NCBI RefSeq assembly: GCF_003426815.1
Contig: NZ_QKYK01000029.1
Location: forward strand, 1 to 64,000
DNA from: Desertimonas flava
GTDB taxonomy: Bacteria > Actinomycetota > Acidimicrobiia > Acidimicrobiales > Ilumatobacteraceae
Direction of reading: 5' to 3'
Length of the DNA stretch: 64,000 bases
Shown: positions 8,190 to 37,074 of the stretch, in pieces
How positions within the stretch are numbered: position 1 is the stretch's first letter
Layout of the letters: each line of letters opens with the position of its first letter
Notes under the pieces: generated by a model
What the model was told of the DNA's origin: nothing
Databases searched by the model: none
The model's input: only the letters and a program-made list of their open reading frames with translations
Program-made: the position numbers and the translations under genes

Positions 8190-9149
8190 ATGACCGACAG
8201 ACTGGCCGTGATGAACGATCCGACGTCGCACTGCGGCGACCTCGGCGCACGTTTCGAGGAGCATCGGCGTCACCTGCTCGGCATCGCCTACCGCATGCTC
8301 GGCTCACACGCCGAGAGCGAGGACGTGGTGCAGGACACCTGGCTGCGGCTGTCCCGTATGACTGACGAGCAGATCGACGGGATCGACAACCTGGCGGGCT
8401 GGCTCACCACAACTGCCGGGCGCCTCAGCCTCGATCGGCTCCGGAGCCGATCGAGGCGGCGCACCGAGTCGCTCGAAGCCGCCGCCGAGCAGCGGCTGCC
8501 CGACCCCGTGGTCCGACGCTTCGACGACGCCGCGGAGGCCGACGATCCCGCCGCTGCGGCCGAGCTCGCCGAGTCGGTGAGTCTCGCCCTGCTCGTGGTG
8601 CTCGAGACACTTCCGCCCGCCGAAAGGCTGGCCTTCGTGCTCCACGACACGTTCGCCGTCCCGTTCGACGACATCGCCCCGATCGTCCAGCGGTCGCCCG
8701 AGGCGACCCGGCAACTGGCCAGCCGCGCCCGCCGGCGATTGCGCGACACCCCGGCCGATCTGGAAAGTCGCACCGCCGGCGACGTCACGCGCCAGCGTGA
8801 GGTCGTCGAAGCGTGGATCGCCGCGGCCCGGGGAGGCGACTTCGAGGCGTTGGTGTCGTTGCTCGACCCCGACGCCGTGCTCCAGGTGGACTCGGGACGC
8901 CCGCGGACGTCCAGGGTCATCCACGGCGCCGAGACCATCGCCCGCAATGCCACCTCGTTCCGCCGCCCCGACGCGATCATCGAGGTCGTGCTCGTCAACG
9001 GTGCGGCCGGGCTCCTCGCCGTCGAGCACGGCCGACCGCTGGCCCTCGGGTCGTTCGCGTTCGGGCCGGACGGCCGGATCGTCGCCGTGTCGATCATCGC
9101 CGACCGTCAGCGGCTCGGCCAGCTCGGCCTGCCCGAGATCGGCGGCTGA
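8190..9149 (+). CDS. ECF sigma factor with C-terminal SnoaL-like domain (SigJ type)
   Basis: A 319-residue sigma factor. Region 2 is at residues ~15-85 (HLLGIAYRMLGSHAESEDVVQDTWLRL) and region 4 at ~125-185 (LPPAERLAFVLHD...VQRSPEATRQLASRARRRL). The last ~120 residues form a SnoaL/NTF2-like domain (VVEAWIAAARGGDFEALVSLL). This architecture is that of the SigJ/ECF41-like group, where the fused domain takes over control of activity, so no separate anti-sigma factor is expected. I do not see the WLPEP linker motif described for ECF41. An alternative ATG is at 8211. The gene is convergent with the beta-propeller gene, 7 bp apart. Confidence 0.88.
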   Translation: MTDRLAVMNDPTSHCGDLGARFEEHRRHLLGIAYRMLGSHAESEDVVQDTWLRLSRMTDEQIDGIDNLAGWLTTTAGRLSLDRLRSRSRRRTESLEAAAEQRLPDPVVRRFDDAAEADDPAAAAELAESVSLALLVVLETLPPAERLAFVLHDTFAVPFDDIAPIVQRSPEATRQLASRARRRLRDTPADLESRTAGDVTRQREVVEAWIAAARGGDFEALVSLLDPDAVLQVDSGRPRTSRVIHGAETIARNATSFRRPDAIIEVVLVNGAAGLLAVEHGRPLALGSFAFGPDGRIVAVSIIADRQRLGQLGLPEIGG

Positions 9150-31189: not shown

Positions 31190-31717
31190 ATGGGACCGAC
31201 GCCGGTGGACGAGACTGACGACGTGGCCGACATCCGGTGGGTCGACTTCGCCGCGTTCTATCGCGAGACGGAGCCGCGAGTGCGGCGGGCTCTGGTGGCC
31301 GCGTGCGGGGTGGAGATCGGCGTGGAGGCTGCGTCGCGGGCAATGGAACTCGGCTTCCAGCGCTGGTCCGACCTCCGGCTGATGGACAACCCGGCCGGGT
31401 ACCTGTACCGCGTCGGACGCAACGCCGCGCGGGACCGACGCAAGGCGCTGCCGGCCGTCGTGCCCGAGGCGGCGGAGCGCTACGGGTTCGAGCCGGCGCT
31501 CCCCGACGCCCTCAACGCACTGACCGAACAGCAACGCCAAGCGGTCCTGCTCGTGCACGGTGCGGGCGAGACGTTGGCGAGCGCCGCGGCGATGCTCGAC
31601 ATCTCGGTCTCGACGCTCCGCAACCATCTCAGCCGCGGCCTCGACCATCTCCGCCGGCGCCTCGGGGTGGAACCTGCACGCCACAGCATCAACGACGACC
31701 CGGAGTCCGACCGATGA
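31190..31717 (+). CDS. ECF-type RNA polymerase sigma factor
   Basis: A 175-residue minimal sigma factor. Region 2 (FAAFYRETEPRVRRALVAACG ... ELGFQRWSDLRLMDNPAGYLYRVGRNAARD) is diverged but complete. Region 4 has LTEQQRQAVLLVHGAGETLASAAAMLDISVSTLRNHLSRGLDHLRRRL. The next gene starts at the ATGA overlap with this stop codon and encodes a single-pass membrane protein with an outer beta-propeller, the position normally held by an anti-sigma factor. It is divergent from the SsnA-like gene, whose start is 60 bp away. Confidence 0.87.
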   Translation: MGPTPVDETDDVADIRWVDFAAFYRETEPRVRRALVAACGVEIGVEAASRAMELGFQRWSDLRLMDNPAGYLYRVGRNAARDRRKALPAVVPEAAERYGFEPALPDALNALTEQQRQAVLLVHGAGETLASAAAMLDISVSTLRNHLSRGLDHLRRRLGVEPARHSINDDPESDR

Positions 31718-33048
31718 TCGACCTCGACGACCAACTCAGCGCCTACAGCCGCTACCTCGACGACCTCGAACGACCGCTCGTGCCGGTCGTCCCGCTCGAC
31801 GAACCGGCCGCCGCGCCGATCCGCACCAGCCGCCGGCGGCTTCTGTCGATGAGTGCCGCCGCGGCGGTGGCGATCGCCGGCGGCGCGGTCATCGCCCGCA
31901 TCGCAACTCGCGGTGACGGCGGCTGGTCGAACCCGTCACCTCCCGACCCCGACTGGAAGCTCGTCCCCGACCTCGACGGCTTGTTCCTCCCGGCGCCGAT
32001 GGGCGAGGACATCATCGCCAGCGCCACGCCGAACGCGATCGCCATCGCCTCCGTCGCCGACACCAGCTTCGGCCTCATCGCCGTCGGCAGCGAGCGTCGT
32101 GATCTGATCACCTACAACGCGATGTGGCGGTCCGCCGACGGTCTCACGTGGGAGCGGCTCCCGAACGACGACGACTTCGGCCCCACCGAGTTCACGGGGT
32201 CGAGCGCCCGGACGCTCGTCAACCTCGTCGAGTTCGACGGCCGGCTGGTCGGGTCCGACGGCTCGAACTTCTGGAGGACCGACGACCTCGAACACTGGGA
32301 GTCGATCACGATCCCGCGTGCCAGCTCGCTGGACTACGGACGGCTCGCCACCAGCATCGCAGCCGGACCTCACGGCGTCTTCGCCGCCAGCTTCGGCCTG
32401 TGGTTCTCACCGGATGGTGCGGACTGGCAGGTCGTCGACGGCTACGGGGACTTCAACACGGCCTTCACCAACGCCGCCACCTTCGTCGACGACCTATTCG
32501 TGGTGACCGGGTCCACACGGTCGGAGCGGCTGGTCCTGACTTCGACGGACGGACGCGAGTGGTCCGCCATCGAACTGCCCGGCAGCGACGGCGATCATCC
32601 GGTTGCCGTCGCCGGCACCGAGGATCGCCTGGTGGTCCTCGGAGCGACATCTTCGGAGGACATGGGATGGATCCAGACACTCGCATGGACGTCGACGGAC
32701 CGCGGCTCGACATGGACTCGTACCACGCTCGGCGCGGTCGACCAGGACGGTGTCGCTCCGAGTGCGATCGTTCACGTCGGCGGCGAGTTCGTCGCCCTCG
32801 CTGCGCGTGGGCTGCAGGCCGACCCCGCCTCCAGGCAGTACCGGTCACCGGACGGACTCGAGTGGACCGAGTACTCGGTGGAGCCCGACGGGTTCCGCTG
32901 GGCGGCCACGGCATTCGGCGACGGCGCGGTGGCCGTCGGCGAGAGGGGCTGGCCGTGGACGATCGGCGGCCCGGAGGGGACGCTGCTGCCCGACGAGGCC
33001 GCGGCCGACGCGGCCAACTCGGCGAGCATCTGGACGCTCGGTCTCTGA
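31714..33048 (+). CDS. Membrane-anchored beta-propeller, putative regulator of the upstream sigma factor
   Basis: A 444-residue protein: a ~40-residue cytoplasmic N-terminus, one membrane helix (~44-63, after RTSRRRLL), and an outer domain of repeated blades with sialidase/BNR-like strands: WRSADGLTWERL, WRTDDLEHWESI, WFSPDGADWQVV, TSTDGREWSAI, TSTDRGSTWTRT and YRSPDGLEWTEY. There are six to seven such blades, so probably one propeller. The N-terminal stretch would face the sigma factor. It lacks the Cys/His zinc motif of ZAS anti-sigma factors, so it would be a new type if it does hold the sigma factor; that function is inference. Confidence 0.78.
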   Translation: MIDLDDQLSAYSRYLDDLERPLVPVVPLDEPAAAPIRTSRRRLLSMSAAAAVAIAGGAVIARIATRGDGGWSNPSPPDPDWKLVPDLDGLFLPAPMGEDIIASATPNAIAIASVADTSFGLIAVGSERRDLITYNAMWRSADGLTWERLPNDDDFGPTEFTGSSARTLVNLVEFDGRLVGSDGSNFWRTDDLEHWESITIPRASSLDYGRLATSIAAGPHGVFAASFGLWFSPDGADWQVVDGYGDFNTAFTNAATFVDDLFVVTGSTRSERLVLTSTDGREWSAIELPGSDGDHPVAVAGTEDRLVVLGATSSEDMGWIQTLAWTSTDRGSTWTRTTLGAVDQDGVAPSAIVHVGGEFVALAARGLQADPASRQYRSPDGLEWTEYSVEPDGFRWAATAFGDGAVAVGERGWPWTIGGPEGTLLPDEAAADAANSASIWTLGL

Positions 33049-33117: not shown

Positions 33118-34755
33118 TCAGTCGCGTTGGGTGCGGCCGGAGATGAAGTCGATGGCGCGGGTGACGTTGGCGGCGACGAAGCGTTCGAGCTTGGGGGCTT
33201 CGAGGAAGCGCTGGGCGGCCTGCAGGGGGCGGGGCGAGCCGGTGGCGACGGCTTCCTCGGTGGCCGCCACGGTGGTCTTCACGGCGTGGGCGTGGACGAT
33301 CTGCGCCGATGTCGTGTCGTCGAGGGCGCGGCGCTGGAGCCGCTCCCCCGCCGCCCGGAGGTCAGCGGGGGTCGGCGCCGAGGCACCAAATCCGAGATCG
33401 ACGTCCGCGGGCTCGCCGACAGTCGAGTGCCACTCGTGGCGGCCGGTCCACTGGGCCTGGAACACGCACCACAGAGCCAGGCGTAGGACGTCGGGGTCGG
33501 AGCGACCGGCGGCGTGCCAGCGCACGGCGTTGGCGTACGTCATGCCATGCGTGATGTCGAGCCAGCCGAAGTCGTCGTGGAACTCGAACTCGCCGGCGAC
33601 GTCGTAGCGGAGCATGCGCTCGGCGACGGCGAGCGACACGACATCGAGCACGCCGTCGATGCCGGCACCGGACCGAAGCGCGCCGGCGGCGGCAGCGAGC
33701 CCCGCCCGGCGATCGTCGCCGAGCAGGGCGGCCAGCAACGCACCGTCGTCCTGCCACGACGGATCGGGAACGACCTCGCACAGGGCGGCCAGGTCGACCG
33801 CGCCCATCGCCCGCACGAACGGGCGCATGTAGGGCAACGTGTCCTCACGGGTGCCGTAGATGATCGTCGGCACGAGATGCGGCAACACGGTTGCCGCCCG
33901 GTCCCAGCCGAGGCGATCGAGCAGTTGGAAGGCCTTCTGCGAGTAGATCGCGGCGTGACCGTACGACAGGTGATGGTCGCTGACGACCGCCGTGAACCAG
34001 CGGCGCAACGTCGCCGCGTCGACGCCGCTGTCGACGGCGGCGAGGAGCACCGCCTGAGCATCCTCCACCGACTCCGCCTCGACGTGGGCCCGGAAGGCTC
34101 CGAGCGGGTCGGCCGGCAGTGACGGCAGCGGCGGGGGCAGCGGGCGCGGCGGACGACCCCGCTCGGTCTCGGCGATGCCCGCGATCGCCTGCACCACCGG
34201 CAGCGCCCTGGCGTCGCCGTCGTAGTGGTCGACCATCGCGAGGCAGTCGGTTGCCGACGCCACGGAGTGGCCCCAACCGAACTCGGCGCGGGGCGCGCCG
34301 TACTGCACGGCCTCCCAGACCAGCTCGCCGGGGTCGGCGTCGGCACGCAGCAGGCGCACGACGTCCCGCGACACCTGACCGACGCGCTGGCGTTCGATGC
34401 CACTGCGTAGGCTCGCCGTCAGGCGGGTCCGCAGTTCCGCCGGCTCGGGCGCGTTGATCGTCACCGACAGCGTGCCGTCGTCGGCGACCTCGACGTCGTG
34501 CGCGGTCACCGCCTCCTCGCCCTGCACGCACGCTCCCGACCTGACGTCGAACTTCCAGTTGTGCCATGCGCACGTCAGCAGGTCGCCCGAGAGGTCGCCT
34601 TGGGTCAGGCCGTAACCCTCGTGGGGGCAGGCATGGTCGAGGGCGTGGACCCCAGACGAGGTGCGGACGAGCAGGACACGGCGCTCGCCCACCCGGGCGA
34701 GGCGCATCGAACCGACCTCGAGGTCGGACAGGGTGATGTCGGAGACGACGGACAT
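33118..34755 (-). CDS. Rieske [2Fe-2S] protein with large C-terminal domain of unknown function
   Basis: A 545-residue protein. Residues ~8-105 are a Rieske ferredoxin domain: C43-P-H45 and C62-A-W-H65 are the cluster ligands (ACPHEGYGL ... LLTCAWHNWKFD). The remaining ~430 residues are mainly helical, with conserved-looking His motifs (VVSDHHLSYGHAAIYSQKAF, ITHGMTYANAVRWHA, TGRHEWHS) that could bind a second metal or a heme; I do not recognise the family. The ATG at 34755 is 7 nt after TACCGT, so the mRNA is leaderless. It is divergent from the CapA-like gene with a palindrome between. Confidence 0.78.
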   Translation of the reverse strand: MSVVSDITLSDLEVGSMRLARVGERRVLLVRTSSGVHALDHACPHEGYGLTQGDLSGDLLTCAWHNWKFDVRSGACVQGEEAVTAHDVEVADDGTLSVTINAPEPAELRTRLTASLRSGIERQRVGQVSRDVVRLLRADADPGELVWEAVQYGAPRAEFGWGHSVASATDCLAMVDHYDGDARALPVVQAIAGIAETERGRPPRPLPPPLPSLPADPLGAFRAHVEAESVEDAQAVLLAAVDSGVDAATLRRWFTAVVSDHHLSYGHAAIYSQKAFQLLDRLGWDRAATVLPHLVPTIIYGTREDTLPYMRPFVRAMGAVDLAALCEVVPDPSWQDDGALLAALLGDDRRAGLAAAAGALRSGAGIDGVLDVVSLAVAERMLRYDVAGEFEFHDDFGWLDITHGMTYANAVRWHAAGRSDPDVLRLALWCVFQAQWTGRHEWHSTVGEPADVDLGFGASAPTPADLRAAGERLQRRALDDTTSAQIVHAHAVKTTVAATEEAVATGSPRPLQAAQRFLEAPKLERFVAANVTRAIDFISGRTQRD

Positions 34756-34762
34756 ACCGCGC

Positions 34763-34793
34763 ACGGTACGGCTTCAATCGCGCTTGAAGTCAA
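34763..34793 (-). promoter_or_regulatory. Promoter with internal operator, Rieske gene
   Basis: Minus strand -35 TTGACT (34788-34793), -10 TACCGT (34763-34768), spacer 19 nt. The inverted repeat CTTCAA-N6-TTGAAG (34772-34789) lies between them, where a repressor would block polymerase. The -10 stands 7 nt from the ATG. Confidence 0.5.
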
Positions 34794-36204: not shown

Positions 36205-37074
36205 GTGGGCACTGCACCGCCGACGGGGCCGGCACTCGACCGCATCGAGATACGGGGCCTCGTCGTCACCACGATCGTCGGCGTGCTCACGCACGAACGG
36301 CAGATCGCCCAGCCCCTGCGCATCGACCTCGATCTGCACGTCGACCTGCGCGACGCCGGCCGTTCCGACGACCTCGGCGACACGGCCAACTACGGCGACG
36401 TGGCCGAGCGCGTGGCGGCGGTCGTGCGCGACGCCGACGACCAGCTCCTGGAACGGCTCGCCGACCGTGTCGCGGCGACCGTCCTGACCATCGACCGTGT
36501 CGAGGCGGTCGATGTCACCGTCACCAAGCTTCGTCCGCCGATCCCCGAGCACCTGGACAGCACGGCGGTGCGGATCCACCGCCGCGCCGTCGAGTACACG
36601 GCGACCGGCTCCCACGACGCGATCGTCGCGCTGGGCTCGAACCTCGGCGATCGCGTCGGCTTCCTCCGCCTGGCGGTGTCGTCCCTCCCGGGCGTGGACC
36701 GCGTCTCGCAGGTCTTCGAGACCGACCCGATCGGTGGACCGGATGGTCAGGGCGCGTACCTCAACATGGTGGTCGGCCTGAGGACCTCGCTCGACCCGTA
36801 CGCGCTGCTGCGCCGCTGCCGCCGGATCGAGGTGGCCGCCGGTCGTGAGCGCGTCGTCCACTGGGGCCCCCGCACGCTCGATGTCGACGTGCTGTTCTAC
36901 GACGATGTGAAGCTCGACGACCCCGAGCTGACGATCCCCCACCCCCGGTTCGCCGAGCGGCGCTTCGTCTTGACGCCGCTCGCCGAGGTGGCCCCGGAAC
37001 GCTGTCCTCCGGACTGGAACGAGACGTTGCCACCCGATGGCGTCCACCCCCGCGGTCCGCTCGCCGAGCAGTGA
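36205..37074 (+). CDS. folK: Bifunctional dihydroneopterin aldolase / HPPK (FolB-FolK fusion)
   Basis: A 289-residue fusion for two consecutive folate steps. Residues ~13-118 are dihydroneopterin aldolase (DRIEIRGLVVTTIVGVLTHER, TANYGDVAERV, VTKLRPPIPEHL). Residues ~134-280 are 6-hydroxymethyl-dihydropterin pyrophosphokinase: ALGSNLGDRVGFLRLA, QVFETDPIGGPDGQGAYLNMV, WGPRTLDVDVLFYDD and IPHPRFAERRFVLTPLAE are the HPPK signatures, including the two Mg-binding Asp residues. Separate folB and folK are usual in actinobacteria, and fusions occur in several lineages. It is convergent with a FolP2-like gene, 27 bp apart. Confidence 0.94.
   Translation: MGTAPPTGPALDRIEIRGLVVTTIVGVLTHERQIAQPLRIDLDLHVDLRDAGRSDDLGDTANYGDVAERVAAVVRDADDQLLERLADRVAATVLTIDRVEAVDVTVTKLRPPIPEHLDSTAVRIHRRAVEYTATGSHDAIVALGSNLGDRVGFLRLAVSSLPGVDRVSQVFETDPIGGPDGQGAYLNMVVGLRTSLDPYALLRRCRRIEVAAGRERVVHWGPRTLDVDVLFYDDVKLDDPELTIPHPRFAERRFVLTPLAEVAPERCPPDWNETLPPDGVHPRGPLAEQ

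Follow-up and report, generated by a model that had tools for sequence, protein, structure and literature searches.

The two overlapping genes described here, one for an ECF sigma factor and one for a single-pass membrane protein with an outer beta-propeller, probably form a two-gene membrane signalling module in which the sigma factor is held by the cytoplasmic tail of its co-translated partner. The computation supports a conserved gene pair, a tail motif, a common topology, the propeller and a specific, family-wide coevolution of tail and sigma factor. Binding at the level of the family is well supported, and we interpret the pair as a surface sensor of sigma/anti-sigma-like type, built from a minimal tail and exchangeable outer domains, in which the tail would inhibit the sigma factor until an outside signal brought about its release. 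The main interest lies in the short, specific tail and in the swapping of outer domains, the propeller being one of many. Positions in Table 1 and throughout are those of the window, the whole 64-kb stretch of DNA that was analysed.

Table 1. Features of the sigma/propeller gene pair, with nucleotide positions in the window
Feature	Position	Strand	Evidence
ECF sigma factor, 175 aa, SigE-family-like	31190..31717	+	ORF, Pfam, NCBIfam, AlphaFold2, relatives in other genomes
Sigma-4 domain, residues 104-157	31499..31660	+	AlphaFold2 helices; Pfam r4_2 at 104-154; coupling
Sigma residue G124	31559-31561	+	Site of the family's strongest coupling to the tail
Single-pass membrane protein with outer propeller, 444 aa	31714..33048	+	ORF, ATGA overlap, AlphaFold2
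Cytoplasmic tail, residues 1-42, motif DLDDQLSAYSRYLDD at residues 3-17	31714..31839	+	Profile score; predicted helix 4-18
Membrane helix, about residues 43-64, SRRR just before	31840..31905	+	Hydropathy; low-confidence helix; borderline Tat signal
Outer sialidase/asp-box-type beta-propeller, about residues 95-444	31996..33045	+	Asp-box motifs, AlphaFold2, fold matches, homologous outer parts elsewhere

The original prediction, made on this DNA alone, named the first gene as that of an ECF sigma factor, and this is confirmed by a region 4 above cut-off (Pfam Sigma70_r4_2, 45 bits against 25.7) and by a helical AlphaFold2 model with two domains (mean pLDDT 89.3, pTM 0.53); region 2 gives no Pfam match at E ≤ 1. 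On the SigE-fam_strep model (TIGR02983) the protein scores 56.2 bits, below the cut-off of 141.55, and by that model it would be a relative of the family and not a member. The predicted ATGA overlap is seen at 31714-31717, where the ATG of the propeller-protein gene (31714) overlaps the TGA stop codon of the sigma gene (31715-31717). Because the next long frame downstream (33118-34764) lies on the minus strand, the sigma and propeller genes seem to form a separate unit.

The second protein had been predicted to be a single-pass protein with a short cytoplasmic tail, and indeed a 42-residue tail is followed by one hydrophobic helix (hydropathy peak of 2.0 from residue 43). AlphaFold2 places a helix at residues 4-18 of the tail (pLDDT about 66-70), a helix at 44-64 on the hydrophobic stretch, but with residues 20-98 under pLDDT 50, and beta sheets at 100-442; the model as a whole (mean pLDDT 62.6, with 272-317 and 413-435 mostly under 50) is good over most of the propeller only and fair over the tail helix. 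Its best structural matches are mainly propellers, sialidases and neuraminidases being prominent: the top Foldseek match is a putative neuraminidase (E 3.5e-7, with a TM-score of only 0.40 and an rmsd of 7.8), and VIA-align gives 5hx0_A (Z 23.4, 278 residues, 3.5 Å) and the bacterial sialidase 1wcq_C (Z 22.6). Asp-box-like motifs number five by a strict pattern, a count that none of 2000 shuffles equals, and about six by eye, so that a propeller fold and repeated SxDGxxW motifs are both found in the outer domain, by model, fold search and pattern. The prediction of a sialidase-like propeller with about six blades therefore holds for the type of propeller, and six blades are plausible, not settled. 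Pfam matches to this part of the protein are all below cut-off (BNR_2, 18.5 against 31.4), the first 67 residues match nothing in Pfam at E ≤ 1, and inspection of the tail sequence finds no HxxxCxxC. The tail had been said to lack the usual anti-sigma motifs, which is correct for Pfam and HxxxCxxC, but it has a motif of its own.

Relatives of the sigma factor were found in 45 of 150 genomes of its own family (E ≤ 1e-8), in 77 of 296 sampled genomes of the class (E ≤ 1e-12) and in 9 of 396 genomes of a phylum sample (E ≤ 1e-14), eight of these nine being inside the class. A scan of named genomes gave relatives with an alignment as query and none with the single sigma sequence; among the best 80 of 163 named sigma relatives, 58 are named within Acidimicrobiia and 22 more broadly (e.g., Actinomycetota), and the class that holds the module is probably Acidimicrobiia. 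The higher-scoring rows of the family searches (30 + 40) and class searches (29 + 60) provided 159 loci with 163 sigma frames and 162 distinct pairs. A downstream partner with a membrane helix and a start between -25 and +5 nt from the sigma stop is present in 150 of the 162; over all 162 pairs, the offsets of the start are mostly -8 (58 pairs), -4 (56), -11 (21) and -14 (12). Of the 12 pairs left out, six have truncated partners of 16-62 residues (L140, L095, L041, L184, L180, L064) and one contains ambiguous bases (L050); in three the partner starts 64 to 120 nt downstream (L067, L051, L069_b), in one the membrane helix is weak (L065), and one lacks such a partner (L071). It should be noted that the gene picker prefers frames that encode a membrane helix and begin closest to the sigma stop, a bias towards the expected arrangement; the tests of motif, coupling and partner choice described below do not rest on the picker alone. 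Named genomes and the phylum search added a further 94 sigma frames (49 duplicates, three cut short, one not fitting [L205] and 41 new), bringing the total to 191 pairs. A search for the gene pair in other genomes had been named beforehand as a test, and it found the genes together in these 150 of 162 pairs and in 41 more.

The original prediction centred on the propeller, a focus that the comparison reverses: the short tail is conserved and the outer domains are swapped. The full-length propeller protein was rejected as the conserved unit, its own genome alone (one of the 150 family genomes) giving a match at E ≤ 1e-5. That genome has a second copy of the pair (contig C3:145584-146018, minus strand; locus L037), whose sigma factor is 49% identical over residues 19-159 and whose 227-residue partner has the tail motif and falls outside the outer-domain cluster of the propeller protein.

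Conservation among the partners is confined to about the first 20-25 residues, with a consensus of about DLEDQLRAYGDTLDE followed by a P-P-V/I stretch (giving a motif of about DLEDQLRAYGDTLDE..PV); the propeller protein reads DLDDQLSAYSRYLDDLERPLVPV at the motif, with the pattern DLxxQLxxYxxxLD. A motif profile built from 86 pairs of other families placed 49 of the 64 held-out family tails above the 99th percentile of shuffles and 55 above the 95th, and on a profile trained on other families the propeller-protein tail scores 13.7, which none of 2000 shuffles reaches. Among the best 30 of the 69 region-4 loci in its own genome, the motif is present in the sigma/propeller pair (21.2) and the L037 paralogue (20.5) only, the remaining loci of the 30 scoring 3.8 or less; the profile used here includes both scoring copies, and some of the other loci have no close downstream gene. 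The membrane helix lies at a median of 49 residues from the start, and the positive-inside rule is obeyed (mean R+K of 3.08 in the 12 residues before the helix vs 1.12 after it). Seven of the 150 tails were left out of alignment A3.

Two weak NCBIfam matches, to 'anti-sigma factor' and CU044_5270 models (18 of 71 members each, in alignment A1 only), were set aside, because they fall mainly on the arginine-rich junction and the membrane helix and, the partner at locus L100 apart, lie far below cut-off; match positions were checked singly in ten proteins, two of which had neither match. The L100 partner is a CU044_5270 protein (104.5 bits against a cut-off of 100), a family named in no paper of the literature searched. 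A match to a Shiga-toxin model (E 0.15) was put down to chance.

A more mundane account of the tail would make it the mere N-region of a Tat signal or signal anchor, the gene overlap a by-product of a compact genome, and the propeller a target or a neighbour. The juxtamembrane SRRRLLSM does let the whole propeller protein just pass the NCBI Tat-signal model (17.0 against 16.7; the 67-residue piece scores 15.9, below the cut-off), and judged by sequence this protein might be exported by Tat; by the Tat or the other route, the propeller would end up outside the cell. A Tat-like motif occurs, however, in only 8 of 191 members, so that Tat export was rejected as the family-wide route; over 20 residues separate the end of the tail motif (residues 3-17) from the arginines at 39-41; and tail-sigma coupling and partner prediction exceed a control made at the membrane junction. 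We give this account very little credence.

Covariation between tails and sigma factors was analysed in 190 pairs (effective number 167). The top coupling, with a score of 3.64, joins sigma residue 124, at the end of the sigma-4 helix 113-124, to column 9 of the tail motif (columns are counted from 0, and column 9 is residue 12 of the propeller protein). This score exceeds all couplings within the sigma factor at a distance of 5 or more (top 2.86), all of 30 free permutations (highest 2.07), the maxima of within-clade permutations (2.46 and 1.71, with 25 at each of two levels) and the membrane-junction control, computed on 189 of the pairs (1.36). The second coupling, P105 with column 8, scores 2.08, and these two are the only ones above the highest permutation; a longer alignment has three couplings above its permutation maximum. 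Weaker couplings concentrate on sigma-4 residues 105 and 119-126, paired with columns 2-9. Residues 32, 36, 43 and 61 of sigma-2 couple to columns 15-17 in the longer alignment with a maximum of 1.70, under the permutation maximum of 1.74, so a second contact is a suggestion only.

At the top-coupled site, glycine tends to occupy one side or the other: it is found on both sides in 6 of the 190 pairs, in the sigma factor only in 83, in the tail only in 44 and on neither side in 57 (p = 2.8e-9, uncorrected for relatedness, with both halves of the data in agreement). Size compensation between sigma 124 and tail column 9 is thus partial, as is evident from the 57 pairs without glycine on either side and from 18 cases of alanine with phenylalanine. 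In the pair described here, sigma glycine 124 meets a tail serine.

The same coupling model also predicts partners. In the 11 genomes with three or more pairs (51 sigma factors), a model trained without the loci of the test genome and without any sigma factor at or above 90% identity put the true tail at the top for 36 of the 51, where 11.0 are expected by chance, and stricter identity limits left 27 (60%) and 21 (55%). The membrane-junction control gave near-chance results of 13, 9 and 10 of 51 at the 90%, 60% and 55% limits, and a membrane-core control 14 of 51. Tail-sigma coupling and partner prediction both outdo the membrane-junction control, so a specific contact of the tail with the sigma factor is very probable across the family. 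For the pair in the window, the true tail comes 29th among 190, and that of the L037 paralogue scores slightly higher (148.3 vs 143.9); its own tail is not singled out, and the claim of a contact therefore rests on the family and not on this pair alone. Of the sensing sigma/anti-sigma module that had been proposed, the conserved pair is upheld, a contact at family level is indicated by coevolution and partner prediction, and inhibition is what we infer.

Coevolution shows matching and not the direction of an effect, and it would also fit an activating or delivering tail. The partner could then be a membrane recruiter that delivers or stabilises the sigma factor and does not silence it, and RskA is reported to be a dual activator-inhibitor of SigK (PMC7509140). 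The place of the gene, the overlap and the topology are nevertheless those of anti-sigma factors, and contact with sigma-4, perhaps joined by sigma-2, is the pattern reported for inhibitors, a dual contact being described for those of class I, II and III (PMC7406223); we consider a recruiting or activating tail unlikely.

We favour a sigma factor held by the tail. On this reading, the N-terminal amphipathic helix (residues 3-17) would pack on sigma-4 around residues 105 and 119-126, and the stretch that follows it, usually P-P-V/I, would lie perhaps against sigma-2. The bound sigma factor would be kept from RNA polymerase, and an event at the outer propeller would release it, perhaps through regulated proteolysis. 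The sigma-2 contact, inhibition of the sigma factor, the signal, the release step and a set of target genes would all belong to this scheme. A site-2 protease gene is present, but it is also present in 14 of 14 control genomes and so is uninformative. Upstream of the sigma genes, a search for promoter dyads found none that was convincing (best counts of 14 vs five-shuffle maxima of 12-13).

The outer parts differ widely between the partners. At a phmmer threshold of 1e-5, 186 outer parts fall into 103 clusters, 66 of them single, with the caveats that contig ends truncate some of the proteins and that separate clusters may yet share a remote relationship. The largest cluster, with 19 of the 186, is that of the propeller protein, and a profile search started from this protein finds 18 other outer parts at 1e-3. 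Pfam domains were scanned in 144 of the 150 partners (six short ones were left out; 25 of 35 families are listed), and at E ≤ 0.01 they include propellers (Kelch, BNR, PQQ, PD40, Reg_prop), wall-related domains (PASTA, LysM, peptidoglycan-binding, L,D-transpeptidase) and, among others, FtsX and MreC outer domains and discoidin-like and thioredoxin-like domains, every type being present in one to six of the 144 proteins. Many of these types would suit binding partners in the cell wall or among glycans. Because outer domains are exchanged while tail and sigma factor stay matched, one cell could own several insulated sensors. More tentatively, the tail may be a separate, minimal class of anti-sigma domain of ~25 residues, with one helix and a P-P-V stretch, that draws its specificity from a few matched positions and serves throughout the class as the inner plug for about a hundred distinct outer domains; on balance we lean somewhat against so strong a claim.

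The arrangement resembles class I anti-sigma factors (RseA, RskA and those with a zinc anti-sigma domain) in having a membrane protein, here a presumed inhibitor, encoded beside an ECF sigma factor. In class I, helix 1 contacts sigma-4 and helix 4 contacts sigma-2, and the domains average 101 residues (PMC7406223), whereas the tail here has 42 residues and neither the zinc motif nor a Pfam match. By size, Pfam and the HxxxCxxC motif, its sequence would place the module outside class I (ASDI/ZAS). About a third of ECF sigma factors are reported to have a recognised class I partner nearby (PMC7406223), and some sigma factors that seem to have no partner may accordingly be held by tails that present models miss because they are so short.

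The class II anti-sigma factors CnrY and NepR likewise have a very short cytoplasmic sigma-binding part, and CnrY of Cupriavidus metallidurans has, from its sequence, one membrane helix. The tail could be a divergent member of this class, with two short helices wrapping the sigma factor and a large outer domain added, which would be compatible with the explanation we prefer. The similar cytoplasmic size, the single membrane helix and the layout of helix, linker and second hydrophobic stretch all speak for such a relation, as does the report that helix 1 of CnrY binds sigma-4 and its second helix sigma-2 (PMC7406223, PMC4598750); here coupling to sigma-4 is strong and that to sigma-2 is within the permutation range. 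CnrY itself scores only -4.6 on the tail profile, however, a value matched or bettered by 1242 of 5000 CnrY shuffles, and profile comparison gives a probability of 0.3%, so that homology of the tail to CnrY, alike as the two are by eye, was rejected as unsupported. Against the PDB, the tail profile gives two chance-level matches (E 2.2 and 2.6), neither of them to an anti-sigma factor. CnrY also differs in having 95 residues, no large outer domain and a separate protein, CnrX, through which it responds (PMC4598750), where the module has a large, variable outer domain in the same protein. The CnrY complex and the PhyR-NepR complex are reported to superimpose without primary sequence similarity (PMC4598750), which means that the tail may have a class II fold despite the missing relation to CnrY; we regard class II descent as a serious candidate, slightly on the doubtful side. 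The CnrY tail of pMOL28 (L288:3310-3444), DVEEWLTHARKVTQEASIGVDV, can be aligned by eye, gaplessly and without score support, to the class consensus, a likeness that is due to chance, convergence or very distant descent.

In its way of working, the nearest parallel would be RsgI of Clostridium thermocellum, which by analogy also combines an inner N-terminal part, one membrane helix and swapped outer sensors, with several pairs per cell (PMC12203970). Likened here by description, RsgI differs in its N-terminal domain, its self-cleaving periplasmic domain and its SigI partner (PMC12203970).

A looser version of the arrangement exists outside the class. Among 30 SigE-family loci from there (L289-L318), 21 have a short-tailed one-helix partner whose gene overlaps or abuts that of the sigma factor, and seven, all of one genus with genomes of 7-10 Mb (family f73), have no such partner; just 6 of the 30 score above 2.5 on the class motif. 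With the looser version in 21 of the 30 loci and the class motif in so few, the module resembles a branch of its own within a habit that is more widespread in actinobacteria. We recognised no description of the module in the literature searched, a body with few subscription papers and without the main published ECF classification. The earlier suggestion that it could be undescribed is to that extent uncertain, as is its priority, and a looser arrangement is common in the phylum.

If the proposal is right, these bacteria, a little-studied class, monitor their environment with sigma switches that keep a short, specific plug on the inside and freely exchange the sensor on the outside. The matched tail-sigma positions would then amount to a small code, directly testable and usable for building insulated switches.

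The window contains a second sigma-like frame at 8190-9149 on the plus strand, with a region-4 match of 37.2 bits and a long extension at its C-terminus, which resembles the SigJ type with a fused domain. The frame at 33118-34764, convergent with the sigma/propeller pair, has an N-terminus that by eye resembles a Rieske 2Fe-2S domain (CPHEGYGL...CAWHNWKF), and the frame at 36205-37074 (plus strand) has, also by eye, the look of a fused folB-folK gene. The sole Rfam match at gathering threshold within the 64 kb is a tRNA gene at 2456-2528 on the plus strand.
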